Source of the DNA: Streptomyces sp. R44
GTDB lineage: Bacteria; Actinomycetota; Actinomycetes; Streptomycetales; Streptomycetaceae
Direction: 5' to 3'
Assembly: GCF_041053105.1 (NCBI RefSeq)
Contig: NZ_CP163444.1
Coordinates: forward strand, 992,001 to 1,056,000
DNA length: 64,000 bases
Below, one piece after another: positions 5,367-37,205 of the stretch (positions are counted from its first letter, which is position 1; the number at the start of each line of letters is the position of its first letter). The notes beneath the pieces are model-generated. The model did not search any database and was not told the DNA's origin. It was given only the letters and a program-made list of their open reading frames with translations. The position numbers and the translations under genes are program-made.

Positions 5367-7424
5367 TCAACCCCGCTCCGTTCGTACGGAGTTGTCCGGC
5401 GCTCTGCGCTCGTCCCGGCCGCCGCGGCCGAGGAGTTCGGCGAGGCCGCGGCGGGTGGCGGCCACCACGACCCGGTCCCCGACCCCGAGCAGCCGCTCCG
5501 GCCGCAGGCGCCAGCCCTCGCCGGAGCCGGCCGCGCGTCCGTCGAGGGCGATGACCCGCCAGGCGCCCGGGCGGAAGGCCTCGGCGACCGTGCGGCCGTC
5601 CAGGAGCGGGTGGTCGGCGACGTCCACGGCGGCGAAGAGGAGGACCCGGCGCTCGACGGGAACGGCGCCGAAGACCTGGCGGCCCATCATGGCGCCCGCG
5701 AAGGCCGGTGCGGCGAGGTGGGAGACGCTGCGGCTCCGGGTGAGGGCCCCGGGGTGGGCGGTGCGCAGGGTGCGGAAGACGGCGGTGGCGAAGTCGTCGT
5801 CGTACAGGCGCAGCACGACCCGCAGGTCGGGCGTGACGGCTCGGGCGGAGAGCGCGGCCTCCAGGTTGGTGATGTCCACGCTGGTCAGGGCGAGGAGCGC
5901 GTGGGCGCGGTGGATGCGGGCCGCCTCCAGGACGCCTTCCTCGGTGACGTCGCCGATGACGGTGGGGACGCGCAGCCGGCGGGCGACCGCGATGCCCCGG
6001 GCCTCCGGGTCGGATTCGACGCACACCACCGGGATGTTCAGTCGGCGGAGCCGGGCGAGGACGCGGGTGCCGACCTTGCCGAGCCCGAGGAGGACGACGT
6101 GGCCGGAGAGTCCGCGCGGCGGACGGCGCAGGGTGGTCGCGGTGCGGAAGGTGCCGAGGCCTTCGAGGAGGGCGGCGACGATCACCGGCAGCAGGAGCAG
6201 GCCGACGAACCCGGCGAGGATCTGGAGCAGCTGGCGGCTGGTCGGTTCGCCGACGGCCGGGTCGCCGATGGCGAAGATGTCGAGGAGCGTCAGATAGGCG
6301 GCGTGCAGCGGGTGGTCGCCTGTGGTGAAGGTGGAGGCGAGGGCGAGCGCCAGGACGGCGGCGACGGCGCCCGCGAGGGACCAGCGCAGCCGGCGGGAGA
6401 AGAGCGAGGCGACGGGCAGCGCGGAGGCGGCGAGCCGGCCCGCCGGCAGGGCCGGGCCCGCCGGGGTGACCGCTTCGAGGGTGACGGCGGCCCGTCCGGT
6501 GGCGGCGGCCACCGTCCGGTCGTCCGGCAGGAGCCGCGGGCCCGCGTCCCCGCTGTGCTCGGAGCCCTCGCAGCCGGCGGGGTCGCCGGCGGTGGCGGAG
6601 AGCAGGGCGAGCGTGCAGAGCCCGGGGTCGGGTGCCTGGCCCGCGACGGGCGGCCGGTCGACGGCGTGCAGCAGCAGTCCCCCGGCCTGGACCACCTTGC
6701 TGGTGCCCGCGACGGCGGCCGCGGCCAGGCCGGGGGCGGCGGTGTCGACGTCGGACAGGACCGTGGTGGCGGCGTCGAGCTTCTCGGGATCGAGACCGGG
6801 TTCGGCGACGGCCGCGGCCTGGTCGAGGAGCGTTTCCAGGTGCTGGCCGAGCTTGCGGTTGTAGAGCCGGATCACCAGGCGGAGCCGGGGGTTGAGGCGG
6901 CGGGCGGTGAGCGCGGCCCGGATGTTGGTCTCGTCGTCCTCGTGGACGAGGGCGAGGGCTGAGGCGCGCTCCGCCCCGGCGTCCCTCAGGGCCCGGTCGT
7001 CCGCCTCCGCCGACTCGACGACCCGCAGGGTGCCGGTCGGTTCGGCGCCGTCCTCCGAGGGCGCCGCCGGAGCTCCGGTCCCGGTGGTGCGGGTGACGGC
7101 GGCGGTGACCCGCCCGAAGAGGGCGAGGGCCCGGCCGGTGCGGCCGGCGGGTGTGCGGGGTGTGTCGGGCAGCGCCGGCACCAGGAGGGTGACCTGCTCC
7201 CCGTACACCTCGTGGAGCTCGCGCGCGAGGCGGTGGGCGAGGGCGTCGTCGCCACACACGATCATGTGCCCGACGGGGGCCGTGCGGGACTGCCGGTCGG
7301 TCCGGAGCGCGGGCGCGCCGAAGGGACCGGCGGGGCCGGGAACGGACCGGGCCGCCGGCTCGGCGGGGGCCGCGGCGGGGGTCCCGTCCGGAACGGCGTT
7401 GCTCTGATGCGGGTATGAGGGCAC
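5367..7424 (-). CDS. Double-RCK (TrkA-N) membrane protein with non-canonical pore segment
   Basis: A roughly 685-residue protein with two RCK/TrkA-N NAD-binding regions flanking a short membrane portion. The N-terminal region begins at HMIVCGDDALAHRLA, and the second carries GHVVLLGLGKVGTRVLARL. Between them lie one hydrophobic helix (SLAGAVAAVLALALAS), a re-entrant-like stretch and a second helix (GFVGLLLLPVIVAALL), the 2-TM arrangement of potassium-channel and CASTOR/POLLUX-like proteins. Where a selectivity filter TVGYGD would be expected the sequence reads FAIGDPA, so ion selectivity is doubtful. The GTG start at 7424 is tentative: no good Shine-Dalgarno is visible and the first 45 residues are Pro/Ala-rich. 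Confidence 0.75.
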   Translation of the reverse strand: MPSYPHQSNAVPDGTPAAAPAEPAARSVPGPAGPFGAPALRTDRQSRTAPVGHMIVCGDDALAHRLARELHEVYGEQVTLLVPALPDTPRTPAGRTGRALALFGRVTAAVTRTTGTGAPAAPSEDGAEPTGTLRVVESAEADDRALRDAGAERASALALVHEDDETNIRAALTARRLNPRLRLVIRLYNRKLGQHLETLLDQAAAVAEPGLDPEKLDAATTVLSDVDTAAPGLAAAAVAGTSKVVQAGGLLLHAVDRPPVAGQAPDPGLCTLALLSATAGDPAGCEGSEHSGDAGPRLLPDDRTVAAATGRAAVTLEAVTPAGPALPAGRLAASALPVASLFSRRLRWSLAGAVAAVLALALASTFTTGDHPLHAAYLTLLDIFAIGDPAVGEPTSRQLLQILAGFVGLLLLPVIVAALLEGLGTFRTATTLRRPPRGLSGHVVLLGLGKVGTRVLARLRRLNIPVVCVESDPEARGIAVARRLRVPTVIGDVTEEGVLEAARIHRAHALLALTSVDITNLEAALSARAVTPDLRVVLRLYDDDFATAVFRTLRTAHPGALTRSRSVSHLAAPAFAGAMMGRQVFGAVPVERRVLLFAAVDVADHPLLDGRTVAEAFRPGAWRVIALDGRAAGSGEGWRLRPERLLGVGDRVVVAATRRGLAELLGRGGRDERRAPDNSVRTERG

Positions 7425-7432
7425 GTCACAAG

Positions 7433-7520
7433 GATGCCCTGCGCCACCGACAGCGGGTCCGGCCCCGCTCGGCGGTGATGCCGAGCGCCACCGACAGCGG
7501 GTCCGCACCCGCTCGACGGG
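7433..7520. repeat. Two-copy 44-bp tandem repeat
   Basis: Copies at 7433-7476 and 7477-7520 differ at only a few bases; the inner 21 bases (7441-7461 and 7485-7505) are identical. They lie in the divergent promoter region between the RCK gene and the carboxypeptidase gene, so they could hold duplicated regulator sites. Confidence 0.8.
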
Positions 7521-7629
7521 GCGGGCACCACCCGGGCGGACGCACGACGCGCCGCCGAACGCCACACCCGCTACGCCGGTCGGCGCACTTCGATCTGCGG
7601 GGTCCGCACCTCCTTCCTACGGTGGCTGA

Positions 7630-8898
7630 ATGATCGTCACGTCAGCTGTCCGTCATGCCGCCGCCGGTTCCGCGGCGCTGCTGTTCGTGCTGCCCGTCCC
7701 GGCGGCCGCCGCCTCTGCCGTCTCTCCCGTCTCCCGGGTCGCGACCGCGCTCGGGGAGCCCACCCCGCCCGCGCGCCAGTACGTCGACCCGGCACGGCTC
7801 GACCGGAAGGGCACGCAGGTGCAGCGGCTGCCGGGCGCGCCCTCCGTGCCCTCGGTGTCCGCCCTGTCGTGGGTGGTGGCGGACGCCTCGTCGGGCGAGG
7901 TGCTCGCCGCGCGGAACGCGCACCGGAAGCTGCCGCCGGCCAGCACCCTCAAAGCCCTGTTCGCGCTCACCGCGCTCCCCCACCACAAGCCCTCCGAGCT
8001 GCACACCGTGGCCGATGCCGAGCTGACCGGGATCGGGGCCGGGAGCAGCCTGGTCGGGGTGAAGGAGGGGTACACGTACAAGGTCTCGGACCTGTGGAAC
8101 GGGGTCTTCCTGAGCTCGGGGAACGACGCCGTGCACGTCCTGGCGGAGATGAACGGCGGCTGGGAGTCGATGACCCGGCAGATGCAGGAGAAGGCCCGCG
8201 CCCTGGGCGCCGAGGACACCCATGTGGTCTCCCCGGACGGCTACGACGCCCCCGGTCAGGTGTCCTCCGCGTACGACCTGGCGGTGTTCGGCCGCACGGG
8301 GCTCCAGGACCCCGCGTTCGCCCGGTACTGCTCGACGTCGTACGCGGACTTCCCGGCGGGCTCCTGGTCGTACGGGATCGCCAACACCAACCGGCTCCTG
8401 ACGGGCGCGGACGGCGTGGAGCGCTACCCGGGGATCCTGGGGATCAAGAACGGCTACACGAGCAACGCGGGCAACACCCTGATCTCGGCGGCCCGGCGGG
8501 GCGACCGGACGCTCGTGGTCTCGGTGATGAACCCTCAGGAGGGCGGCGGGTTCGCCGTGTACGAGGAGGCGCGGGAGCTGCTCGACTGGGGCTTCGAGGC
8601 GGCGGGGCGGGTGCAGCCGGTGGGCTCGCTCGCCCCGGTACGGGCGAAGGCGGCGGCCGACGCGGGCACGCGGGCGGTGTCGGTGGCCCGTGAGGGGCAC
8701 GGGAGGAAGGCGGCGCCGGTGGCGCCCCGGGTGGGCGCGGGGCTGGGGGCGGAGGCAGTGGCCGCGCCCGGCGGGAAGGCTCCGGAGGCGGCGGCGTCGA
8801 GCCCGTCGGCCGGGCTTCCGCTGACCCTGGTGGGCTCGGCCTGCGCAGCGGCGCTCGCCCTGTGGGGGTGGCGGCGCAGGACGGCCCGCAGGGCCTGA
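7630..8898 (+). CDS. D-alanyl-D-alanine carboxypeptidase (low-molecular-weight PBP)
   Basis: A 422-residue S11-family serine peptidase that trims the terminal D-Ala of peptidoglycan stem peptides outside the membrane. A signal peptide covers about residues 1-28. Catalytic motifs are in order: SxxK as STLK, SxN as SGN, and KTG present as KNG (IKNGYTSNAG), a common actinobacterial variant. A Pro/Ala linker near residues 340-390 leads to a C-terminal membrane helix and the basic tail RRRTARRA, so it is probably anchored rather than released. The start lies 205 bases from the divergent RCK gene; upstream Shine-Dalgarno pairing is weak (GGTGG). Confidence 0.9.
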   Translation: MIVTSAVRHAAAGSAALLFVLPVPAAAASAVSPVSRVATALGEPTPPARQYVDPARLDRKGTQVQRLPGAPSVPSVSALSWVVADASSGEVLAARNAHRKLPPASTLKALFALTALPHHKPSELHTVADAELTGIGAGSSLVGVKEGYTYKVSDLWNGVFLSSGNDAVHVLAEMNGGWESMTRQMQEKARALGAEDTHVVSPDGYDAPGQVSSAYDLAVFGRTGLQDPAFARYCSTSYADFPAGSWSYGIANTNRLLTGADGVERYPGILGIKNGYTSNAGNTLISAARRGDRTLVVSVMNPQEGGGFAVYEEARELLDWGFEAAGRVQPVGSLAPVRAKAAADAGTRAVSVAREGHGRKAAPVAPRVGAGLGAEAVAAPGGKAPEAAASSPSAGLPLTLVGSACAAALALWGWRRRTARRA

Positions 8899-9054
8899 AC
8901 GTCCCGTTTCGAGGGCCGCAGGTCGTGCGGTGTCACGGGAGACGCAGGACCCGGCCGGGCCGGCGACGGTTCGGCGGGCGCCGCACGATCCGGCTTCTAG
9001 CCTGCGGGAACACCGTCCGGGACCGGCCCGGGCGGACTTCCCGAGGAGTGCCCG

Positions 9055-9675
9055 ATGACGGACAGTGCGCCCGCCGCCGTACGGATCGCCGAGATCGCCG
9101 AGCGGTTCCGCGAGGTGAACGGCGAACATCCGATGACCGCCGAGGACGACGCGTACGTCTCCGCCCAGTTCGTCCCGCTGGAGACGCTGTGCGGCCGGTG
9201 GGGCCGGGACGCCGACGAGGTCCGGGGGCTGATGCTCGCGGGTCTGCTGCCGCTGCCGGGCTATCTGCGGTCGGACGGCGCCGAGATGGTGCCGCGCGAT
9301 CTGTTCGCGCTCACCGAGGCGGCCGGTGGTGCCGACCTCCTGCGCGCCTGGTTCACCGGGCACTGGGAGGACCCGGTCCGGGGCGAGGAGGAGTGGACGG
9401 CGTATCTGAGCGGCCGGTACGTGTGCCTGCACCAGGTGACTCCGGCGAACATCCGCCGCAAGGAGCGGCTGACGGCGGAGATCACCGAGCGTCTCGCGGC
9501 GGCGGGGCCGGATCCCTCGCCGGAGTGGCGGGGCGCCCTCCACGCGTGCGTGGACGCGCTCGACGCCCTGGAGCCGGCGTTCACGGCGTACGACCGGCTG
9601 CGCTTCGGCGGCCCCACCTCGCGGGACACCTGCGTGGACGCGCCTCGGGCGCTCTTTCCCCGTCCACGGGACTGA
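9055..9675 (+). CDS. Conserved actinobacterial protein of unknown function
   Basis: A 206-residue soluble protein with no signal peptide or membrane segment. GAGGAG precedes the ATG by 7 bases. The N-terminal half has charged helices, and RGLMLAGLLPLPGYLRSDGAEMVPRD resembles a DNA- or ligand-binding helical pair, but I cannot assign a known fold with confidence. It may belong to a DUF family seen near natural-product genes (DUF6058 comes to mind; unverified). It converges with the UvrA-like gene across a hairpin. Confidence 0.75.
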   Translation: MTDSAPAAVRIAEIAERFREVNGEHPMTAEDDAYVSAQFVPLETLCGRWGRDADEVRGLMLAGLLPLPGYLRSDGAEMVPRDLFALTEAAGGADLLRAWFTGHWEDPVRGEEEWTAYLSGRYVCLHQVTPANIRRKERLTAEITERLAAAGPDPSPEWRGALHACVDALDALEPAFTAYDRLRFGGPTSRDTCVDAPRALFPRPRD

Positions 9676-24558: not shown

Positions 24559-26400
24559 TCATGCCACAGCGAGCCGGCCGGCGCGGTCGCGGTCGTGGCG
24601 GCGTGTGCCGTAGAGGGTGAACGCCGTGTTCACCAGGGCGACATGACTGAGCGCCTGGGGCATGTTGCCGAGCTGACGGCCGGCCACCGGGTCCCATTCC
24701 TCGGCGAGGAGCCCGACGTCGTTGCGGACGTCGAGGACCCGCTCGAAGACGGCCCTCGCCTCGTCGGCGCGGCCGGTCACGGCGAGGGCGTCGGCGTACC
24801 AGAACGTGCAGGCGACGAAGCTCCCCTCGGTGCCGCCGAGGTCGTCGAGCTCGTGCGTGCCGCCGTCGCGGGCGTCGCCGTACCGGCGCAGGAAGCCGTG
24901 GTCGTCGAGCCGTTCCATCGCCCGGACGGTGCCGAGGACACGGGGGTCGGCGGCCGGGAGGAAGCCGAGCCGGGGGATCAGCAGGGCGGTGGCGTCGACC
25001 TGCCGGCTTCCGTAGTACTGGGTGAAGGAGCCCTGTTCCTCGCTCCATCCGCGGGCGCAGATCTCCGCGTGCAGTTCGGTGCGGAGCGCCTGCCAGCGTG
25101 CGAGGGAGCCGCGCAGTCCGGCGAGGCGGGCGAGGCGGACGGCACGGTCGGCGGCGACCCAGGCCATGACCTTGGAGTGGACGAAGTGGCGGCGCGGGCC
25201 CCGGACTTCCCAGATGCCCTCGTCGGGTTCGCGCCAGCGCTTGCCGAGGTACTCCAGGAGCGAGGCCACCAGGGACCAGGCCGCGGGGTCGAGGTCGACG
25301 CCGGCCCGGACGGCCGAGTAGACGGTGCTGAGGACCTCGCCGTAGATGTCGAGCTGGAACTGGCCGACGGCGGCGTTGCCGAATCTGACGGGGCGTGAGT
25401 TCTCGTAGCCGGGCAGCCAGTCGGCGTACGTCTCGGGCAGCCGCCGCTGCCCCTCGACCCCGTACACCGGCTGGAGGTCGGCGGGGTCGCCCGCGACGGC
25501 GCGCAGCAGCCAGTCGGTCCAGGCCAGGGCCTCCCTGCGGTATCCGCTGCGGAGCAGACAGGAGAGGGTGAAGGTGGAGTCGCGCAGCCAGCAGAAGCGG
25601 TAGTCCCAGTTGCGGCCGCCGCCGACGGACTCGGGCAGCGAGGCGGTGGCGGCGGCGACGATGCCGCCCGAGGGGGCGTAGGTGAGGGCCTTGAGGGTGA
25701 GCAGGGAGCGGAGCACGGCCTCGCGGGCGGGCCCTTCGTAGCGCAGGTTCGCTGCCCAGTCGTTCCAGAAGGCGAGGGTACGGGCGAGGGCGGCGGCGAC
25801 ACCGGCGGGCGAGGCGGGCGGCGGCGCGGGGGCGTACGAGGGGCTCCAGCCGAGGACGAAGGCGACCCGGCGGCCGGCCGTGACGGTGAACTCGCAGCTC
25901 GTACGGTCGGGGGTGACGTCCAGTTCGACGCCGGGCCCGCAGGAGAGGTGGGCGGCGTCCGGCCCGGCGAGGGAGACGACGGTGCGCCGGTCCTTCGCGC
26001 GGGTCCAGGGCACGATGCTGCCGTGGTCGAAGCGGACCCTCAACTCGCCCCGTACGGCGACCCGTCCGGCGACCCCCTCGACGATGCGGACGATCCTCGG
26101 GGAGTCCTCGCCCGGGCTGCGGGGCGGCATGAAGTCGGTGATCCGGACGGTTCCGGAGAGGGTCTCCCAGACGCTGTCGAGGACGAGCGTGTCGCCGCGG
26201 TAACTCCTGCGCGTACAGCGGCCGTTGCCGACGGGGGCGAGGATCCATCGGCCGTGGTCCGGCTCGCCGAGGAGGGCGGCGAGGCAGGCGGGCGAGTCGA
26301 AGCGGGGTGCGCACCACCAGTCGACGGACCCGTCGGTCCCGATGAGCGCGGCGGTCTCCAGGTCACCGACGAGGGCGTAGTCCTCAATTCGCCCTGCCAT
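24559..26400 (-). CDS. GH15-family glycoside hydrolase (glucoamylase/trehalase-like)
   Basis: A 613-residue cytoplasmic enzyme with the N-terminal beta domain (IEDYALVGDLETAALIGTDGSVDWWCAPRFDS) and the C-terminal (alpha/alpha)6 barrel of GH15. The motifs GGGRNWDYRFCWLRDS and GLLAEEWDP carry the Trp/Arg/Asp substrate contacts and the catalytic Glu. Actinobacterial members of this shape include trehalases as well as glucan 1,4-alpha-glucosidases, so the substrate is not settled. No signal peptide. It is divergent from the glycan operon across 199 bases. Confidence 0.9.
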   Translation of the reverse strand: MAGRIEDYALVGDLETAALIGTDGSVDWWCAPRFDSPACLAALLGEPDHGRWILAPVGNGRCTRRSYRGDTLVLDSVWETLSGTVRITDFMPPRSPGEDSPRIVRIVEGVAGRVAVRGELRVRFDHGSIVPWTRAKDRRTVVSLAGPDAAHLSCGPGVELDVTPDRTSCEFTVTAGRRVAFVLGWSPSYAPAPPPASPAGVAAALARTLAFWNDWAANLRYEGPAREAVLRSLLTLKALTYAPSGGIVAAATASLPESVGGGRNWDYRFCWLRDSTFTLSCLLRSGYRREALAWTDWLLRAVAGDPADLQPVYGVEGQRRLPETYADWLPGYENSRPVRFGNAAVGQFQLDIYGEVLSTVYSAVRAGVDLDPAAWSLVASLLEYLGKRWREPDEGIWEVRGPRRHFVHSKVMAWVAADRAVRLARLAGLRGSLARWQALRTELHAEICARGWSEEQGSFTQYYGSRQVDATALLIPRLGFLPAADPRVLGTVRAMERLDDHGFLRRYGDARDGGTHELDDLGGTEGSFVACTFWYADALAVTGRADEARAVFERVLDVRNDVGLLAEEWDPVAGRQLGNMPQALSHVALVNTAFTLYGTRRHDRDRAGRLAVA

Positions 26401-27493: not shown

Positions 27494-27898
27494 GTGACCT
27501 CCATCCATTCCAGCCGGACGCCGGTGGCACCCGTGCCGCACCCCCTGCGGCGGGTGACCGACTGGCCCCTCGCCGATGCCCGGCACCGCTCGCTCTGCCG
27601 CCCCCCGCACCGTCCGACGGCCCATCCCGCCCGCCGCGCCACCGACCGGATCGGCCGCCATGTCCCCGCGCCCCTGTGCCTGACCCGCAGGCCGCGCGGC
27701 GCAGGGCGGCGACGGCGCGCGCGTACGGCCCACACCCGCACCGCGCGACGGAGTCGCGGCTCCGGCCGATCGTCCGGCGCGTCCGGCTCATCAGGCTCAC
27801 CCGGCCCCTTCGGCGGGTGCGGTGCGACCCACCGCGCCGCCCCTTTCCGCGCCCCCGCCCCGGTGCGGGCCCGGAAGCCGGGGAGGCGGGTGCCATGA
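27494..27898 (+). CDS. Arg/Pro-rich small ORF coupled to the next gene
   Basis: A 134-codon ORF from GTG with GGAAGAGG 6 bases upstream; its TGA overlaps the next ATG (ATGA). Third positions stay strongly G/C, as in real genes, but the product is an Arg-, Ser- and Pro-rich, probably disordered chain without recognisable domains. It may be a real small protein or chiefly a translational lead-in. Coding status is uncertain. Confidence 0.45.
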   Translation: MTSIHSSRTPVAPVPHPLRRVTDWPLADARHRSLCRPPHRPTAHPARRATDRIGRHVPAPLCLTRRPRGAGRRRRARTAHTRTARRSRGSGRSSGASGSSGSPGPFGGCGATHRAAPFRAPAPVRARKPGRRVP

Positions 27899-29739
27899 CC
27901 GGCTTCCGCGGACCCCTGCTCGTCGCCGTGTCGGGTCCCGACGACGCGGGCACGTCCTCGCTGGTGCGCCGGCTCGGGAGACTGCTCCGCGAGCGCGGCG
28001 TCACCGTCGTCACCGTCCATGGCCACGGCTGCTTCCTGTGCCGCCGACTCCCGGTTCCGCCACGCGTGAGGGAGACCGGGGAACCGGGTGGGGGCGGGTG
28101 GGCACGGCGCGCCTCGGATCCCGAGCGCCGGGGACCCCGGCTGCGCCGTGTCCACGCGCTCCTCGAAGCCGCCGAGCTCGCGGCCCGGATCGCCGCGGCC
28201 CGGCGGTTCGCGCGGGCGCGGGCCCACGGCGGGCAGGCCGTGGTCGTCACCGACCGCGGCCCGCTGGACGGCCTGGTGAGGTTCGACCCGCCGGCCTCCT
28301 CCGGGACGGCGTCCGCCTTCTGCCGGATCGCCGCGGGCTACGCCCTGACGCTGCTGGTGGAGACGGGGCCCTGGGCCCGGCCGGTCCGCGGCCGGGAGGA
28401 GACCGAGGGATCACCGGCCGCCCGGTGGGGCCGCTACCGGAGCTGGTCGCTGCGGCTGACGGGCATCGCGCGCCTCGACGGCGCACGGGCCCCGTCCCTG
28501 GTGGCGGGCGCGGCCCTGGAGCGGATCCTCGACACGGTGTGGGAACGGGAGCGGGTGGTCGCCGAGCCGGAGCCCGAGCCGGCCGGGGAGCGGCGGCACG
28601 TGGTGCTGTCGGTCTACGACGACGCGGACGACCCCGCCCACCGGGGCGAAGGGCCGCTGCTCGCGGGCAAGGTGGCGCGGCGGCTCGCCGAGGACTTCCG
28701 GGTGACCATCGTGACGGCGGGCCGACGCGGCGGCACCGAGGACCGGGACGGCATCCGGTACGTCCGGCTCCCGGTGGGCCGGGCGGGCCCACGCACCGGA
28801 AGGCTGCTCTTCCTCGCGATGCTGCCGTTCGCGGCCCGGCGGATCCGGCACGACCTGTGGCTGGAGAACTTCACTCCCCCGTACTCGACGAGCTTCCTGC
28901 CCCTGACGACCCGCGCCCCCGTGGTCGGCATCGACCACGGGGGCGCCGAGGCCCCGTGGTGGCGCCACCACGTGCCGTTCTTCCTGGTGGAGCGGCTCGG
29001 CCTGCGCTGCTACCGGCACATCGTGGTGACGAACGCGGCGGACGGATCGGTGATCCGCAGGCTCAGCCCCCGGGCCGACGTACAGGTCGTTCCCAACGGG
29101 GTGGAACAGCCCTTCCCTGACGAGGCCCGGCTGGGCGCCGGGCAGTTCATCCTCTTCCTGGACCGGATCGACACCTGGGTGAAGGGCCTCGACCTGCTGA
29201 TCGACGCCTACGACCGGGCCCGGCCGCCGCTCGACCTGCTGCTCGCGGGCACGGGTCCCCCCGCGGAGGAACGCCGGCTCACCGCGCTCCTCGCCGCCCA
29301 CGCCCGCGGCCCCGAACCCCGGATCCACTGGGTCGGACCCGCCGGAGAGGCCCGCAAGCGCCAGCTGCTGCGCGACAGCGCCTTCCTGGTGATGCCGTCC
29401 CGGCACGAGACCTTCGGTCTGGTGGCCCTGGAGGGCATGGCGTACGGCAAGCCGGTGCTGCACTTCGACCTGCCGGCGCTGCGCTGGATGCGCGACGGCG
29501 GCGACGTGGCCGTCCCGCCGTTCGACGTGGCGGCGTTCGGGGCGCGCATGACCGAACTGGCGACGGACACGGCGCTCCGGCGCCGACTGGGCCACCGCGC
29601 CGGGATCGCGGCGCGGCACTACACGTGGGACGAGACGACGGGCCGCTATCTGGCCCTGGCCCATCGGCTGCTCGACTCACCCGCCGCCGCGCGGCGGCCG
29701 AGGAAGAGGGGTGCGTCGTCATGGCAGACGACCCGCTGA
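27895..29739 (+). CDS. Degenerate P-loop kinase domain fused to GT4 glycosyltransferase
   Basis: A 614-residue fusion. Residues 1-220 have the layout of thymidylate-kinase-like P-loop kinases, but the Walker A site reads SGPDDAGTSS, with Thr20 where Lys is required; VVVTDRGPLDG (D120-R121) matches the DR motif. Residues 235-600 are a GT-B/GT4 glycosyltransferase, with PNGVE, KGLDLLIDAYDRA and the E-x7-E motif HETFGLVALEGMAYGKPV. The kinase half is probably regulatory or structural. GGGGAGG precedes the ATG. It overlaps the PIG-L gene by 19 bases and so belongs to one operon. Confidence 0.87.
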   Translation: MTGFRGPLLVAVSGPDDAGTSSLVRRLGRLLRERGVTVVTVHGHGCFLCRRLPVPPRVRETGEPGGGGWARRASDPERRGPRLRRVHALLEAAELAARIAAARRFARARAHGGQAVVVTDRGPLDGLVRFDPPASSGTASAFCRIAAGYALTLLVETGPWARPVRGREETEGSPAARWGRYRSWSLRLTGIARLDGARAPSLVAGAALERILDTVWERERVVAEPEPEPAGERRHVVLSVYDDADDPAHRGEGPLLAGKVARRLAEDFRVTIVTAGRRGGTEDRDGIRYVRLPVGRAGPRTGRLLFLAMLPFAARRIRHDLWLENFTPPYSTSFLPLTTRAPVVGIDHGGAEAPWWRHHVPFFLVERLGLRCYRHIVVTNAADGSVIRRLSPRADVQVVPNGVEQPFPDEARLGAGQFILFLDRIDTWVKGLDLLIDAYDRARPPLDLLLAGTGPPAEERRLTALLAAHARGPEPRIHWVGPAGEARKRQLLRDSAFLVMPSRHETFGLVALEGMAYGKPVLHFDLPALRWMRDGGDVAVPPFDVAAFGARMTELATDTALRRRLGHRAGIAARHYTWDETTGRYLALAHRLLDSPAAARRPRKRGASSWQTTR

Positions 29740-30593
29740 CCGGATTCGTCCGCACCGTCCTGGGCACCGGCGTCCCGATGCTCGTGCTCTCACCGCATCT
29801 GGACGACGCCGTGCTGTCCTGCGGCGCGCTGCTCGGCTGGGCGGGGCGGCGGGCCCCGGTGACGGTCGCGACGCTGTTCACGGAGGCCGCGCCGCCTCCG
29901 TACACCCTCTCCGCCCGGCAGTACCTGAAGCGGGCCGGGGCCCGGGACGCGCAGGAGCTGTTCGCCGACCGGCGCGCGGAGGACCGGCGGGTCCTGGAGC
30001 TGCTCGACGCCGACTGGCGCCATGTCGGCCTGGTCGACGGGCTGTTCCGGCGGCTGCCGCGGATCGGCCCGGGCACCGCCCGGCTGTCCCGGGTGCTGCC
30101 CGAACTGGCGCATGTGTACCCCACGTACCGCCTGCACCTGTCCCGGGGCCGGGTCTCCTCGTACGACGCCGAGACGCTGCGCGTGGCCGGGGAGGTCGTC
30201 GACGCGCTGCTGCCCGCCCGCTCCGGCGGCCTGGTGCTCGCGCCCCTCGGCGTGGGCGGGCACGCCGACCACGTCCTGGCCCGCACCGTCGCGGAGCGCA
30301 GCGGCCGCCGGGTCGTGTACTACAGCGAGTTCCCGTTCAACCAGACGGCCGCCGCCGACGCGGAGTTCACCGGCCGGCACCGTCTGGTGGCCCGCGCCTG
30401 GGAGCGTGACCTCGACCGGAAGGCGGAGCTGATCCGCGGCTACCGGACGCAGACCGGGACGCTGTTCCCCGGGGGCGGCATCCCGCGGGCGCCCGAGGTG
30501 TATCTGCTGCCCGAGGCCGCCGACCCCGCCGTGTCCTGGGAATCCGATCGCCTGCGCGGCACCCGGGCCCGGACCGCGGGAGGTGTGGGGTGA
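29721..30593 (+). CDS. PIG-L family N-acetylglycan deacetylase
   Basis: A 290-residue LmbE/PIG-L deacetylase with the zinc-binding signature SPHLDDAVLSCG (H26, D28, D29) near the N-terminus and the second metal/catalytic motif GGHADHV. The family removes N-acetyl groups from GlcNAc conjugates such as mycothiol precursors, GPI-like lipids or antibiotics. Between two glycosyltransferase genes, its substrate is presumably a sugar intermediate of the same pathway. There is no signal peptide, so it acts in the cytoplasm. Confidence 0.9.
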   Translation: MADDPLTGFVRTVLGTGVPMLVLSPHLDDAVLSCGALLGWAGRRAPVTVATLFTEAAPPPYTLSARQYLKRAGARDAQELFADRRAEDRRVLELLDADWRHVGLVDGLFRRLPRIGPGTARLSRVLPELAHVYPTYRLHLSRGRVSSYDAETLRVAGEVVDALLPARSGGLVLAPLGVGGHADHVLARTVAERSGRRVVYYSEFPFNQTAAADAEFTGRHRLVARAWERDLDRKAELIRGYRTQTGTLFPGGGIPRAPEVYLLPEAADPAVSWESDRLRGTRARTAGGVG

Positions 30594-30724
30594 CCGCCCC
30601 GGACACCGTCCCCGTCCTCGCGCCCGGCGCGGGCGGGCGGGCGGGGGTCGCGTGCCGGCGGCCCTCCCCGCTGTGCCGGGCGCCGGGACCGGACGCCTCG
30701 GAGGTGCCCGATGCCGCGCCATGA
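30590..30724 (+). CDS. Possible 44-residue coupled small ORF
   Basis: GTG overlaps the PIG-L stop (GTGA) with GGGAGG 6 bases upstream; the frame ends inside the start of the next glycosyltransferase gene. The peptide is Pro/Ala/Gly-rich with two Cys and matches nothing I know. Signals are good but length is short, so it may only couple translation. Confidence 0.35.
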   Translation: MTAPDTVPVLAPGAGGRAGVACRRPSPLCRAPGPDASEVPDAAP

Positions 30725-31805
30725 GCGGCGGCCCCGTGTCCTGCTCCTGACCGCCGGCGCGCTGGACGGTCCGGAGGCCTGTGGCGTGCGGCTGGCCGCC
30801 GACGTCCTCGGGGCCCTGCCCGACGTGGACTTCGTCTGGTTCACCCAGGGGCCGCGACGGCGCCAGGCCCCGCCGGAGCGCGGGCGGCCGGTCCGCGTCC
30901 TGTCCCGGGACGGCGGGCCGCACATCACCCTCCGCGCGCAGTCGGCGCTCGCCGGGGCCGTGTTCGCCCGCCGGGTCGACCTCGTGCACGCCTTCCTGAG
31001 CATCGGCCGCGCCTTCCCCGCCTTCTCCTGGCTGCGCCCGCTGCTGCTCAGCGGACGGCCGGTGGTGCACACCGTGCCCGGGGTGACCGACAACCGCTCC
31101 CTGCGGCGCGCCCGGCCGCTCGGGACCACGGTCGCCCTGTCCGAGTCGATGGCCCGCCGGCTGCGGGCGGCGGAGTTCGGGGACGTCCGGGTGGTCCCGC
31201 CCATGGTCCGGCTCGACGAGTGGCCGTACCTGCCGCGGCCCGAGGGCTTTCCCGTGGTCCTCTTCGCCGGTCACCACGACCCGCACGGCGGGGCGGAGAT
31301 CGCGATCGAGGCGGCTGCGGTGGCCCACGGCGAGGGGGCCAGGTTCCGGCTGGTGCTCGCGATGCGGGGACGGCCGGGGCAGGACGCCGAGGCCCTCGAC
31401 GAGGCGCTGCGGGAGCGGGCCGGCGCGGCCGGGCTGCCCGAGGTCGACGTCCGCGGATACGTCGACGACATGCACGCCCTGCTGGCCTCCGTCCAGGTGC
31501 TGCTGTTCCCGCCGGCCCGGCTCGGCGGCCACGCGGACATCCCGCTCACGGTGCTCCAGGCGCTGGCCTCCGGGCGGCCGTCGATCCTCAGCGACCTCCC
31601 CCAGTTCGCCGACTTCGGCCATGCCGTGCTGCGGGCCCCGGCGGGCGACGCGCGCCGCACCGGGCAGCAGCTGGCGTGGCTGCTCGACCAGCCGCGCTCC
31701 TGGGACATGCTCGCGGAGCGGGGGCGGGCCCTGGTCGAGGACCACTTCGGCCCCGAGCGCTTCGCCGCCCGGTACGCGGCGCTCTACCGGGAGCTGCTGG
31801 CCTGA
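30711..31805 (+). CDS. GT4-family glycosyltransferase
   Basis: A 364-residue GT-B protein. The N-terminal Rossmann domain begins RVLLLTAGALDGPEACGVRLA and contains VDLVHAFLS; the C-terminal nucleotide-sugar domain has VVLFAGHHDPHGGAE and ends with LTVLQALASGRPSILSDL, where the E-x7-E motif is weak (the first Glu is not obvious). Sugar and acceptor unknown. GGAGG lies 6 bases before the ATG. It is the last gene of the operon and converges on the methyltransferase gene with 25 bases between stops. Confidence 0.85.
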   Translation: MPRHERRPRVLLLTAGALDGPEACGVRLAADVLGALPDVDFVWFTQGPRRRQAPPERGRPVRVLSRDGGPHITLRAQSALAGAVFARRVDLVHAFLSIGRAFPAFSWLRPLLLSGRPVVHTVPGVTDNRSLRRARPLGTTVALSESMARRLRAAEFGDVRVVPPMVRLDEWPYLPRPEGFPVVLFAGHHDPHGGAEIAIEAAAVAHGEGARFRLVLAMRGRPGQDAEALDEALRERAGAAGLPEVDVRGYVDDMHALLASVQVLLFPPARLGGHADIPLTVLQALASGRPSILSDLPQFADFGHAVLRAPAGDARRTGQQLAWLLDQPRSWDMLAERGRALVEDHFGPERFAARYAALYRELLA

Positions 31806-31830: not shown

Positions 31831-32607
31831 TCACGGCGAACCGTCCGGCCGGGTCGCCGAGAGGAGCAGGACGCCGGTGTCCCCGTACTCGGGCAGGGTG
31901 CGGTCCTTCGCGAGCCGGGTGATCCGCAGGCCGGTGGTACGGGGGACGAACACGGCCCGCAGGGCGGGCTCGTCGACCGGGCAGGCGGGCCAGACCGGGC
32001 CGGTGCCGATGCGGTAGCTGGGCATCTGCTCCATGAAGGCGGCGATGAGCGTCCCGCCGGGCCTGACGGCGCGGACGAAGGCGTCGCAGACGGCGGTGAA
32101 CTCGCCGAAGTCCTCGGTGACGCTCTCGGCGACGAAGTTCATCGAGGCGAGGTCGTACGTGCCGGGGACCAGGTCGTCGGCGGTGCCCCGGACGACCCTG
32201 ACCCGGTGGAGCGCCTCCGCGCACTCCGCCGGGAGGGCGGGGTCGAGGGAGCGGCACAGGGCGTAGAAGGGCCGCCAGCTGTCGTCGATGCCGTACGTGA
32301 GCTGTGCGCGCAGATAGCGGACGCTGGCGGCGCTGGGCTCGACGGCGTCGACGCCGCGGCTCGCGGCGCCCGCGAGCATCAGCGGGTACAGATTGGGTCC
32401 GGCGCCGAGCTCCACCGTGCGGGAGAGGCTGCCGGGGGTGAAGCGCCGGTAGACGGCGGCGTGATGGCGGATGACGCCGATGTCGCAGGGGTGGAGCCTG
32501 CGGTAGTTCTCGGCGAGGTAGGCGTCGACCGGCCAGGCGTTCCAGTCGGCGTCCCGGTTGCGGCGGACCCGGCCCGTCTCCTGGGGGCCCGGCGGATTCA
32601 GGTCCAT
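31831..32607 (-). CDS. SAM-dependent methyltransferase coupled to the c-di-GMP/PLP fusion gene
   Basis: A 258-residue class I methyltransferase. VELGAGPNLYPLMLAGA is SAM motif I, VDAVEPSAASVRYL follows as the acidic ribose-binding strand, and RAVRPGGTLIAAFMEQM is the post-motif strand. Overall layout resembles the NNMT/PNMT/TEMT group, which methylates small amines; the target here is unknown. The ATG overlaps the stop of the upstream gene (TGATG), with GGAGGAG as ribosome site, so the two proteins are likely made together and act in one pathway. Confidence 0.85.
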   Translation of the reverse strand: MDLNPPGPQETGRVRRNRDADWNAWPVDAYLAENYRRLHPCDIGVIRHHAAVYRRFTPGSLSRTVELGAGPNLYPLMLAGAASRGVDAVEPSAASVRYLRAQLTYGIDDSWRPFYALCRSLDPALPAECAEALHRVRVVRGTADDLVPGTYDLASMNFVAESVTEDFGEFTAVCDAFVRAVRPGGTLIAAFMEQMPSYRIGTGPVWPACPVDEPALRAVFVPRTTGLRITRLAKDRTLPEYGDTGVLLLSATRPDGSP

Positions 32608-35600
32608 CACTCCTCCGCGGGCCTTCCGGCGGTGACGGAACGGGAGGCCTCGGCGGGCTGCAGCGCGAAGCGCGCGGCGAGCTGTGTGAGGGCGGTGCAC
32701 AGCTGGTCGATCTCCTCGTCGGTGTTGGCGGCGGTGATCTGGACGCGGAAGCCGACCCGGTCGCGCGGGACGAGCGGATAGGACGCGAGCGTCACGTAGA
32801 TGCCGTGCTCCCAGAGGAAGGTGGCGACGGCGTCGAGGTCGCGGGCGTCGCCGAGCGGGATCTCCACGATCGGCAGGCCGTCCGTGTTGGGGGTGGCGAT
32901 GCCCAGGGCCCGCACATGGTCGAGGACGCGGGCCGTCCTGCGGTAGAGGCGGGCCCTGATCTCGTCCCCCCGCTCGTCGTTCAGTTCGAGCCCGGCGAGG
33001 GCGGTGGCGAGCGAGGCGGTCGGCGAGGGCCCCGAGTAGAGGTACGGGGCAGCCGCCACCTTGAGGTGGTCCTTGAGCCACCTCGGTACGGCGAGGAAGG
33101 CGAGCAGCGAGGAGAAGGCCTTGGAGAAGCCGCCGACCAGGACCAGGTTGTCGTACGTCTCGCCGACATGCCGGACGATGCTGTTGCCGCGCGAGCCGTA
33201 CGGGCTGCTCTCGCCATCGCGGCGCTCGCCGATGACGCCGAAGCCGTGCGCGTCGTCGACGTACAGCAGGGCGCCGTTCTCCCGGCAGATCCGGGCCAGG
33301 ACGGGCAGGTCGGGGAAGTTGCCGGTCATGCTGTTGACGCCGTCCATGCAGACGAGCCGGCCCGCCTCCGGGGGCGCGCCGCGCAGCAGCGCGGCCAGCT
33401 CCTCCGGCTGGTCGGCGCGGAAGCGGTGGATCTCGGCGCCCTGTCCCCGGGCGCCGACGCAGCCGTCGTACACGGTGCGGTGGGCCTGCGCCTCGACGAA
33501 GACCTGTCCGGTGCCGGCGAGGAGCGGGATGACGGACTGGTGGATGAGGGTGATGGTGGGCAGCAGCAGGGTGTCGGGGGCGCCGAGGAGTTCCGTGAGC
33601 CGCTCCTCGATGCGGGGGTAGAGCCGGGGGCTGCCGATGAGCCGGGACCAGCTGGGGTGGGTGCCCCACCGCCGGACCTCGGGTTCGATGGCCTCGATGA
33701 TGGCGGGTTCGAGGTCGAAGCCGAGGTAGTTGCAGGAGGCGAAGTCGATGAGCCAGTCGTCGCCGACGCGGATGCGGCGGCCGTCGACCTCGTCGATGAC
33801 GGCGTCGCACATGAGGCTGGTCCGCTGGAGGTGCTCCAGGTCCCGCCAGCGGGACTCGCGCGGGGGCCGGACGGTGCGGACCGCCGGGACGGGGCCCGCG
33901 AGCCGGACGGCGGGGCGGGCGGTCGGCCCGGTGGCGGCGGGCGGGGAGCGGTGCAGATAGGACTCGGTCTGGTGGGCGGTCATGGGGCGGGCGAAGAGGT
34001 AGCCCTGCCCGTACCGGCAGCCCATCTGGGCGAGCAGTGCCCGCTGTTCCTCGTGCTCGATGCCCTCGGCGACGACCTGGAGGCCGAGGACGTCGGCGAT
34101 GCGCACGATGCCCTCCACGAGCGCCACCTGCTGCAGGTCGGTGGTGATGTCGTCGATGAACGACTTGTCGACCTTGAGGACGTCGATGGGGAACTCGCGG
34201 AGGTAGCTGAGCGAGGAGAATCCGGTGCCGAAGTCGTCGATGGCGATGCCGACGCCCAGCTCCTTGAGGGCGGCCATGGTGGTCCGGATCTGGGCGTCCT
34301 TGCGCATCAGTACGGTCTCGGTCAGCTCCAGGAAGAGCGAGTCGGGTGCGAGCCCGGAGGAGTGGAGGGCGCGCCGCACCTCTTCGAGGAAGCCGGGGTC
34401 GCGGAACTGCCGCGGGGAGACGTTCACATTGGCCCGCAGCGGCGACTGGCGGGGGTGCATGCGCTGCCAGCGCGCGATGTCGAGGGCCGCGTGTTCGAGG
34501 ACCCAGGCGCCGAGCGGCATGATGTGGCCGCTCTCCTCGGCCAGGGTGATGAACTGGTCGGGCGGCACCATGCCGCGTCGGGCGTGCGGCCAGCGGATGA
34601 GCGCTTCGAGGCCGGCCGTGGCGCCTTCCTCCACCTCGACGATCGGCTGGTAGCGCAGGGCGAAGGCGTGGTCGGCGATGGCGTTGTCCATGCCCGCCTG
34701 GAGTTCGTGGCGGGCGACGAGCCGGGAGTGCAGCTCGGGGTGGAAGAGCCGCCACCGCTTCTTGCCGGCGGCCTTGGCCGCGTACAGGGCGAGGTCGGCG
34801 TGGCCGAGGAGCTCCTCCGCGTGCGCGCTGTCGAGCACGGTCGCGATCCCGACGCTGGTCGACACGGAGACGGCGCCGTCGGTGAGGTGGAACGGCTGGC
34901 TGAGGGTGTGCACGATCTCGGCCGCGAGGGCCTCGGCGTCGCGGGGCTCGCGCGCGCCCTCGATGAGGACGGCGAACTCGTCGCCGCCGAGCCGGGCCGC
35001 GGTGTCGGTGAGCCGCAGGACCGAGGTGAGGCGGCGGGCGACGGCGACGAGGAGTTCGTCGCCGACGGAGTGGCCCATGGTGTCGTTGACGACCTTGAAG
35101 TCGTCGAGGTCGACGAAGAGCATGCAGGTCAGGGTGGACTCGCGGCGGCCGCGGAGCAGCGCCCGCTCGATGCGTTCGAGGAGGAGGACGCGGTTGGGGA
35201 GCCCGGTCAGCGAGTCGTGGAACGCCCGGTGGGTCAGCTCCCGTTCCAGCTTCCGCTGCTCGGTCACGTCCCGGAGGGTGAGGACCAGGCCGTGGACGGT
35301 GCGCTCGTCGCGCAGGTTGCTGCACCGGACCTCGACCTCCAGTTCGCCCGAGCCGCCGTGCAGCAGCTTCCAGTCGTCCCGGGCGTCGGCGGCGCCGCGG
35401 GCGCGCGCGTCGGCGACGAGACGCAGGGCGCTCGCCGTGTCGGCGGGGGCGAGGAGGTCGACGAGCGGGGTCCCGGGGAGCAGCGAGCGGCCGAACATGG
35501 ACTCGGCGGAGGGGCTGGCGTACCGGATGCTGTCGTCGTCGTCGACGATCAGGATGACGTCCGAGGTGTTGTGCACGAGGGTGCGGAAGTAGGCCTCGCT

Positions 35601-37085
35601 GGTGCGGCGGTTGACCTCTTCGCTGAGCCCGAAGCGTTCGAGGGCCAGGGCCGCCTGGGAGGCGAGGGACTGGGCGGGTGCCGCGATCTCCGCGAGCTTC
35701 TTCTCCGGTCCCGCGAAGAGCATCACGCCGAGCACCGGTTCGCCTCCGGCGGGGACCTGGAGCTCGAGCGGGCACAACAGGGCGTGCGACTCGGGCGTGA
35801 TCTCGGCTGTGATGGACGGGTCGAGGCGGGTCACCGGGAGCAGCCGGGCCCCTTCGGCGACCAGCTCGGGCCAGGGGGTGCCGCGGGGCCGGATCAGCTC
35901 GTCGGTGCGGCAGCTCCAGGGGTGTTCCGCGGTGGCCACGGCGGTCAGGCCGCCGCGGCGGTCCCGGGTGAGCAGCAGGACCCGGTGGGAGGGGCCGGGG
36001 CCGAAGAGGGTGGCGGAGGCCGTCTCGACCGCTCCGGCGACCTCGCGGGGGCTGAGGGCGGCGACGAGGGAGGCGGCGGCGACCCTGAGGCTGCGTTCCC
36101 GGGCCTCGGCCTTGCCGTGGTCGAGCATCATGCCCCAGAGCCGGGCGAGGACGAGCAGGAACATGATCGCCGAGAAGATCGCGATGACGCCGATGTCCTC
36201 GTTCCGGTCGTGGCGCAGGGACTGCAGGAGCAGCAGGACCGGGGCGACGAGGGAGGCTCCGGCGAGCAGCGCGAGCCGCCGCTCGGCGATGCGCGGGGTC
36301 GGTTCGGGGGCGGTCTCGGTCAGGCCGGTCATGGAGGGGTGGAGGGCGGCGAGGCCCCAGGCGGTGAAGAAGACGACCCAGCCGAGGTCCCAGGGGGTGC
36401 CGACCATCCAGGTGCCCTTGAGCTGGAGGATGCCGTAGATGACGTCCGACGCCAGGATGCCGCAGGTGCCGAGGGTGAGGAGCTGCACGGAGCGGGAGCG
36501 CAGTCCGCCGGGGACGAGGAGCCGGGCGAGCATCGCCAGCATCAGCACGTCGCCGAGGGGATACGCGATGGAGATGGCCTTCTCGGTCCAGGTCATGTCC
36601 TCGCTTCGGGCGAGCGGGGTGATCAGGTTGACCCAGCAGAGCAGCGCGAGGCCCGAGGTGAGGATCAGCGCGTCGAGGAGGACGGCGAGGTCACGGCCGA
36701 CGGCCCGGTAGCGGATGAACCCGAACAGGCCGACGGCGAACAGGGGATACGTGGCCAGGTAGAGGGCGTCGGCGATGGACGGGAAGGGTCTGGTCTGGCC
36801 GAAGAAGGCCTCCAGGGCGTTGTACGCGGTGTCGCCGCTCACGAAGGTGAGGTTCGCCGCGGCCAGGACCAGCCAGGGCCAGCGGCGGGCGGGCCGGTGC
36901 AGATGGACGCCGACGAGGATGGCGACGACGCCGCTGAGCCCGATCAGCGCCCAGAGGGTGGTGTGGCGGGCGGGGATCTCCAGGTACGCGACGGTCAGCA
37001 GGGTCACGAACAGGAGGTAGACGACGGTCCAGGTGCGCAGGGCCCGGCGCTCGGTGGCATGCCGGTTCGGCCGGCGCAGCGACAT
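32607..37085 (-). CDS. Membrane GGDEF-EAL protein fused to a PLP-dependent alpha-oxoamine synthase
   Basis: A 1492-residue single ORF. Residues 15-320 hold about eight to ten membrane helices. A GAF-like region covers 330-490 and a PAS domain 500-615. GGDEF lies at 615-790, with GGDEF at 700-704 and an RxxD inhibitory site at 691-694. EAL lies at 795-1050, with E827, the DDFGTG motif from D950, K971 and E1007. After a Pro/Ala linker, residues 1090-1475 form an aminotransferase-fold enzyme of the AONS/KBL/serine palmitoyltransferase group, with DDAH (D1277, H1280) and the PLP lysine K1322 in GGFSKAF. All catalytic motifs look intact, so it could make and degrade c-di-GMP and condense an amino acid with an acyl-CoA. 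No frameshift or internal start is evident. Confidence 0.93.
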   Translation of the reverse strand: MSLRRPNRHATERRALRTWTVVYLLFVTLLTVAYLEIPARHTTLWALIGLSGVVAILVGVHLHRPARRWPWLVLAAANLTFVSGDTAYNALEAFFGQTRPFPSIADALYLATYPLFAVGLFGFIRYRAVGRDLAVLLDALILTSGLALLCWVNLITPLARSEDMTWTEKAISIAYPLGDVLMLAMLARLLVPGGLRSRSVQLLTLGTCGILASDVIYGILQLKGTWMVGTPWDLGWVVFFTAWGLAALHPSMTGLTETAPEPTPRIAERRLALLAGASLVAPVLLLLQSLRHDRNEDIGVIAIFSAIMFLLVLARLWGMMLDHGKAEARERSLRVAAASLVAALSPREVAGAVETASATLFGPGPSHRVLLLTRDRRGGLTAVATAEHPWSCRTDELIRPRGTPWPELVAEGARLLPVTRLDPSITAEITPESHALLCPLELQVPAGGEPVLGVMLFAGPEKKLAEIAAPAQSLASQAALALERFGLSEEVNRRTSEAYFRTLVHNTSDVILIVDDDDSIRYASPSAESMFGRSLLPGTPLVDLLAPADTASALRLVADARARGAADARDDWKLLHGGSGELEVEVRCSNLRDERTVHGLVLTLRDVTEQRKLERELTHRAFHDSLTGLPNRVLLLERIERALLRGRRESTLTCMLFVDLDDFKVVNDTMGHSVGDELLVAVARRLTSVLRLTDTAARLGGDEFAVLIEGAREPRDAEALAAEIVHTLSQPFHLTDGAVSVSTSVGIATVLDSAHAEELLGHADLALYAAKAAGKKRWRLFHPELHSRLVARHELQAGMDNAIADHAFALRYQPIVEVEEGATAGLEALIRWPHARRGMVPPDQFITLAEESGHIMPLGAWVLEHAALDIARWQRMHPRQSPLRANVNVSPRQFRDPGFLEEVRRALHSSGLAPDSLFLELTETVLMRKDAQIRTTMAALKELGVGIAIDDFGTGFSSLSYLREFPIDVLKVDKSFIDDITTDLQQVALVEGIVRIADVLGLQVVAEGIEHEEQRALLAQMGCRYGQGYLFARPMTAHQTESYLHRSPPAATGPTARPAVRLAGPVPAVRTVRPPRESRWRDLEHLQRTSLMCDAVIDEVDGRRIRVGDDWLIDFASCNYLGFDLEPAIIEAIEPEVRRWGTHPSWSRLIGSPRLYPRIEERLTELLGAPDTLLLPTITLIHQSVIPLLAGTGQVFVEAQAHRTVYDGCVGARGQGAEIHRFRADQPEELAALLRGAPPEAGRLVCMDGVNSMTGNFPDLPVLARICRENGALLYVDDAHGFGVIGERRDGESSPYGSRGNSIVRHVGETYDNLVLVGGFSKAFSSLLAFLAVPRWLKDHLKVAAAPYLYSGPSPTASLATALAGLELNDERGDEIRARLYRRTARVLDHVRALGIATPNTDGLPIVEIPLGDARDLDAVATFLWEHGIYVTLASYPLVPRDRVGFRVQITAANTDEEIDQLCTALTQLAARFALQPAEASRSVTAGRPAEE

Positions 37086-37205
37086 CGTCCACCGCCCCCT
37101 TGCCGGGTCGGACGCCGTCGGCAGCGCCCTGGTCGCGGATACGGACCCCGTACGGTGTCCATTCTCCGGGGCCCCCGGGAGGGCTGCATCTCGGCTGCTC
37201 CCGCG

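Follow-up and report, generated by a model that had tools for sequence, protein, structure and literature searches.

Why would one bacterial protein carry the GGDEF and EAL domains of cyclic di-GMP (c-di-GMP) metabolism together with a complete alpha-oxoamine synthase (AONS)? The question is raised by a 64,000-nucleotide stretch of Streptomyces sp. R44 (contig NZ_CP163444.1, positions 992,001 to 1,056,000; hereafter the window), which lies between 0.99 and 1.06 Mb in a genome of 8.89 Mb on a single contig. A single unbroken frame at 32607-37085, for which a preliminary description of this DNA gave no strand and which we read on the minus strand, encodes a CdgF-like fusion protein of 1492 amino acids with the order 10TM (ten transmembrane helices), spacer, PAS, GGDEF, EAL, linker and AONS. 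It received the top score in the window from a codon-composition gene caller, a score partly explained by its length, and its ATG at 37085 follows, at a distance of nine bases, a ribosome-binding-like AGGGGG read directly from the DNA (37095-37100, minus strand). As judged from comparative sequence analysis, the pairing of this AONS family with the membrane sensor is more constant than its pairing with a c-di-GMP output. The reading that we tentatively favour, giving it somewhat less than an even chance, is that a small-molecule synthase is tied to a membrane sensor that perceives the synthase product, or a close relative of it, and reports through c-di-GMP.

Pfam placed four domains in the protein, each above its cut-off: PAS (residues 499-607; 35265-35591, minus strand, as are all parts of the fusion), GGDEF (621-777; 34755-35225), EAL (801-1034; 33984-34685) and Aminotran_1_2 (1113-1466), the last marking the AONS domain (1086-1475; 32661-33830). 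None of its families exceeded the cut-off over residues 1-335 (36081-37085), for which AlphaFold2 predicted ten helices (pLDDT, its per-residue model score, 89.5), in line with the multi-helix membrane sensor of the preliminary description. Its domain list thus holds for PAS, GGDEF, EAL and AONS; a GAF-like domain was left unconfirmed, with no Pfam match at E ≤ 1e-3 in residues 331-495. By sequence criteria, the GGDEF domain (motif at 700-704) has an I-site (RxxD 691-694, with R691 and D694) and the EAL domain has its metal-binding and catalytic residues (E827, D950, K971 and E1007), so that both would be expected to be active, and D1277, H1280 and the lysine K1322, which would bind pyridoxal 5'-phosphate (PLP), are present in the AONS domain. 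The description had called the catalytic residues of all three enzyme parts intact, and those it cited are indeed kept in 119-120 of 120 aligned fusions. In the same alignment the EAL-AONS linker (33831-33965) is poorly conserved and varies from 44 to 131 residues over positions 1040-1088.

The PLP-dependent domain is a genuine member of the group of AONS and serine palmitoyltransferase (SPT). Its AlphaFold2 model (pLDDT 88.9) finds alpha-oxoamine synthases as the best matches in the Protein Data Bank (E about 1e-33), sharing the fold of ThAOS, KBL, BioF and SPT structures over about 400 residues, with a TM-score of 0.78-0.84 and 20-30% identity among the 50 matches listed; the PLP lysine aligns with those of 2x8u and 8s1y. 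K247, D202, H205, H127 and R372 (domain numbering) are invariant in 41 sequences, the window included; among them we take there to be the PLP lysine, the Asp to the pyridine nitrogen, the His pair and the carboxylate Arg. The motif WGTHPSW[SC]R, which reads WGTHPSWSR in the window, is invariant in these sequences save at one position. This motif and the missed NCBIfam equivalog cut-offs set the domain apart from the ThAOS, KBL, BioF and SPT enzymes as a subfamily of its own; assignment to a known equivalog was rejected at 177 of 426 bits for bioF, 157 of 500 for SPT, 148 of 460 for KBL and 108 of 339 for ALAS. The domain presumably catalyses the decarboxylative condensation of an amino acid with an acyl thioester. 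More distant relatives (42-43% identity) form the end of AMP-binding/DIP2-like-PP-AONS proteins in two loci, L150 and L151, with the motif WGAHPSWSR in L151 and no match to it in L150; these proteins suggest carrier-bound fatty-acyl donors, and the acyl donor is probably fatty acyl. Both genes adjoin a sensor kinase or a sensor-GGDEF-EAL gene, and a similar AMP-ligase beside a sensor in L192 runs to the contig end, leaving any AONS out of view.

The fusion is not rare. In a protein search scored on the AONS part and limited to 0.55-1.75 times the full length, 604 proteins reached E ≤ 1e-3. The 120 top-scoring ones, the window protein included, have both EAL and Aminotran_1_2, and those with organism names, among them the nearest named relatives, are from Streptomyces (this statement covers the 120). 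With this many full-length homologues, a sequencing frameshift is unlikely to have produced the fusion, and the claim of a single protein stands. A scan for the AONS family in named genomes gave 335 relatives, the best 80 of which underlie all counts of 80 loci given here. The GGDEF-EAL part is fused to the AONS in 60 of them, is encoded by an adjacent upstream gene in the other 20 and is absent from none, so that the two halves, far from being consistently unlinked, are fused or adjacent throughout. Among 20 further chosen loci, 18 have an EAL domain within about 3.2 kb, and the other two (L042 and L044) end at a contig edge on the side where it would be expected. As a control, the window genome contains 35 places matching Aminotran_1_2, and only that of the fusion has one of the genome's five EAL genes within 10 kb. 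A quick tree of the AONS domain (95 rows with Frankia as outgroup, SH-aLRT branch support only, after removal of four duplicate loci and two lacking EAL) places two-gene versions at the base and the fusions inside Streptomycetaceae, interleaved with split forms; three labels need nine changes, which is consistent either with one fusion and several re-fissions or with repeated fusions. Some of the split rows, such as the long-branched L075, may be assembly errors.

Across 295 Streptomyces genomes, the AONS domain is present in 52 (E ≤ 1e-60; two are partial matches). Together with the CdgF sensor (E ≤ 1e-40), it occurs in 51 genomes; one has AONS only, as a fragment, four have the sensor only and 239 have neither. 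Two genomes have decayed copies: in G009 (L213) the sensor and AONS frames are broken with the methyltransferase frame open, and in G197 (L212) an AONS fragment is all that is left.

The same linkage extends to the phylum, where the output of the sensor varies. The AONS family was found at E ≤ 1e-90 in 26 of 396 genomes, and the sensor domain lies on the same contig in 25 of these, within one open frame in two Streptomyces and at 72-4419 bases in the other 23. We read the neighbourhoods of 20 of the 24 non-Streptomyces hits: 16 contain GGDEF (15 with EAL, L141 being cut by the contig end), three (L137, L139 and L150) have the sensor with a histidine kinase only, and one (L152) has no sensor. 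An exporter of the MFS family occurs in ten of the 20, and in L135, L138 and L140 the AONS, a sensor-kinase, an exporter and a sensor-GGDEF-EAL gene stand in a row. On a quick tree of the sensor (68 rows; L192 counted as linked, its AONS being out of view, and L202 as unlinked, its genome having AONS elsewhere), AONS-linked sensors cluster, with 5 changes against 16.8 for shuffled labels and none of 500 shuffles as low, and outputs switch within the cluster. The sensor is a more constant companion of the AONS than c-di-GMP is, and the most economical explanation is a sensor that recognises the AONS product or a near relative of it, with c-di-GMP or a phosphorelay as its output.

The sensor also occurs without AONS, in about 16 copies in Streptomyces genomes, of which we fetched eight. 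Behind five of these paralogues (L205, L206, L209, L210 and L211) come a gene of about 1000 amino acids and one of about 240-267 amino acids. In Pfam scans of three large and three small genes, the large ones showed A-PCP-R and the small ones a Leu/Phe-tRNA-protein transferase; the remaining genes were assigned by sequence start and position. An MFS-like gene lies upstream in four of the five loci (Pfam-checked in L205). An A-PCP-R nonribosomal peptide synthetase (NRPS) with a Leu/Phe transferase is the architecture of livipeptin (PMC10548850), which thus recurs beside AONS-less CdgF paralogues; the main text of that report makes no mention of GGDEF or diguanylate, and a link of livipeptin-like modules to c-di-GMP proteins was not found in it. 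No such genes are among the examined neighbours of the window operon, although the Leu/Phe transferase also stands beside AONS in eight Frankia-family loci (L043-L050, with Frankia named via L047 and the transferase Pfam-checked in L045); all eight have the transferase match near the AONS and seven have a GGDEF-EAL gene in reach.

The fusion has a close partner in the window. Its stop shares bases (TGATG) with the ATG start of a gene for a 258-residue S-adenosylmethionine (SAM) methyltransferase (31831-32607, minus strand), a relative of the SCO2525 family that stays below the family cut-off (120 of 240 bits) and has weak similarity, also below cut-off, to the NNMT/PNMT group of amine N-methyltransferases. 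Of the 80 loci, 72 extend 2.5 kb or more downstream, and in 67 of these such a methyltransferase and/or an MFS exporter lies within 2 kb (52 of 56 fused and 15 of 16 adjacent). Ten loci of Dactylosporangium and the Actinoplanes group, four of them with less than 2.5 kb downstream, have an exporter in nine cases and a methyltransferase in none. In L039, one frame directly 3' of the AONS (7282-9354, minus strand) joins an MFS_3 exporter to an SCO2525-like methyltransferase.

Under the reading of a synthase coupled to a sensor for its product, the AONS domain would join an amino acid to an acyl thioester (probably a fatty acyl one), yielding an alpha-aminoketone, the coupled methyltransferase would modify this product, and in some relatives the MFS protein would export it. 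The ten-helix domain, as its linkage suggests, would bind the product or a related molecule, and the bound ligand would act through PAS on the balance of GGDEF and EAL and hence on c-di-GMP. Fusion would ensure equal amounts of synthase and sensor. Synthase and sensor form one polypeptide in most Streptomyces that have the system; elsewhere their genes are neighbours, and the sensor may act through a histidine kinase instead.

Several observations weigh against this reading. The sensor family is broad, with matches in 115 of the 396 genomes at E ≤ 1e-20, 89 of which have no AONS at E ≤ 1e-90, and its profile was built only from AONS-linked members, whose high rank is thus partly by construction. 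AONS-linked sensors do not form one clade (at least three changes are forced), the Frankia sensors share only about 21% identity with that of the window, and a comparison of sensor folds gave no clear result. G835, the genome of L152, has its AONS without a sensor nearby and its sensor on another contig. Three of the eight fetched AONS-less copies (L204, L207 and L208) have no NRPS module either. The co-occurrence of AONS and sensor in the 295 Streptomyces genomes is uncorrected for phylogeny. As for export, Pfam checks of neighbours of the window operon revealed no MFS gene, and one is present in only three of the 56 fused loci.

Other explanations of the fusion can be weighed against the same data. 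The preliminary description proposed direct control of the synthase by c-di-GMP; in such a model, the half with sensor and GGDEF-EAL would turn the attached AONS on or off by setting a local c-di-GMP level or a conformation. The predominance of the fused form among the best loci and the near-complete retention of the c-di-GMP residues would fit such control, but the linker is variable and poorly conserved, 20 of the 80 loci have split genes, the AONS tree mixes fused with split forms, and sensors with a histidine kinase stand beside the same AONS family; the proposal thus finds no support here, and we regard it as unlikely. The AONS might instead supply a long-chain aminoketone for a sphingoid-like membrane or envelope lipid, with the sensor monitoring the envelope and the tether only placing the enzyme at the membrane. 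The fusions of AMP-ligase, carrier and AONS recall the co-occurrence of SPT genes with genes for acyl carrier protein and acyl-CoA synthetase (PMC9386255), and glycosyltransferases (29), epimerases (26) and PIG-L proteins (18), all named by Pfam, recur near 97 loci, the window included. Such a role is nonetheless improbable in our view: the three SPT models listed stay far below their cut-offs, the best being the one given above, the methyltransferase and exporter genes better suit a released small molecule, and the patchy distribution of the AONS, in about one in six Streptomyces genomes, argues against a bulk lipid.

We would rate as quite unlikely that the locus is an ordinary specialised-metabolite operon whose sensor-GGDEF-EAL part regulates the pathway on an environmental cue, without product sensing. 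Sensor paralogues beside livipeptin-like modules, and a sensor family broader than the AONS, would agree with it; it would not explain why the pairing is repeatedly tight, with kinase as well as c-di-GMP outputs, or why the two are fused in one protein.

A sensor for the product of its partner synthase has a precedent in CqsA/CqsS and LqsA/LqsS, in which a PLP-dependent synthase is paired with a cognate membrane sensor in alpha-hydroxyketone quorum sensing (PMC3376566). The pairing of synthase and membrane sensor is common to both, and the AONS-sensor system would operate in the manner of CqsA/CqsS, its output being c-di-GMP. It is not a member of that class, since the CqsA cut-off is missed and the sensor in the window is not a kinase. 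Against the CqsA-type model NF005526 (cut-off 428 bits), two AONS relatives reach only 99 and 76 bits, and the model is absent from the best 25 of 43 matches of the window protein and so scores below the last of these (108 bits). Unlike CqsS and LqsS, the sensor here has ten predicted helices and a GGDEF-EAL output, a kinase being found only in some AONS relatives, and the system further differs from CqsA/CqsS in its methyltransferase and exporter genes and in having synthase and sensor in one chain. CqsA/CqsS-type signalling appears to be restricted to aquatic gamma-proteobacteria, with Burkholderia and Ralstonia also having homologues of synthase and sensor (PMC3376566); if true, the system proposed here, analogous but with a second messenger as its output, would extend it beyond Proteobacteria. 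A broader proposal, which we consider doubtful, is a new class of self- or cell-cell signalling in which a polypeptide makes a lipid-derived alpha-amino-carbonyl signal and senses its own product through a ten-helix receptor that writes c-di-GMP. This receptor would be modular, its partner being either AONS or an amino-aldehyde-making A-PCP-R protein with an aminoacyl-tRNA transferase, both leading to alpha-amino carbonyls, and its output either c-di-GMP or a phosphorelay.

Our searches found no characterised protein of the same kind, as the preliminary description had supposed. One copy has been handled experimentally. In a genome of 8,223,505 bp (G015), five EAL genes lie at 0.487, 2.84, 5.58, 5.61 and 7.48 Mb, an order and spacing that match the S. 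venezuelae loci 0451 (cdgF), 2604 (cdgA), 5165 (rmdB), 5187 (cdgC) and 6830 (rmdA) (numbers from PMC6205966). The fusion protein of this genome, which carries the AONS domain, is 99.2% identical to a protein named Streptomyces venezuelae at NCBI (P0033); from this name and the gene order we infer that the genome is S. venezuelae. Judged by position and architecture, its fusion is CdgF (vnz02140/sven0451), an orthologue by location. Table 1 of PMC6205966 presents CdgF as 10TM-PAS-PAC-GGDEF-EAL, a description that does not mention an AONS domain, whereas the copy in G015 has one at its C-terminus. According to the same paper, CdgF is membrane-bound and among the least expressed, and it was tagged and deleted, the deletion giving no developmental phenotype; a 2026 paper (PMC13232838) states that its function is still to be defined. 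A re-examination of the existing cdgF deletion for metabolites, not sporulation alone, is thus warranted. Development and antibiotic production in Streptomyces are under the control of c-di-GMP, and what the sensory domains of its enzymes perceive is described as unknown (PMC6205966); here the sensor carries or adjoins a synthase that may make its ligand, which could therefore be found by enzymology and metabolomics.

Other genes surround the operon in the window. A GH15/trehalase-like gene (24559-26400, minus strand) belongs to a family found near 35 of the 97 loci, the window included. Convergent to the operon, a plus-strand stretch (27895-31805) encodes a glycosyltransferase, a PIG-L deacetylase and a second glycosyltransferase (30711-31805), the last being given as context, with membership in the system not established; homologues of these genes are present in the S. 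venezuelae-like locus L052.

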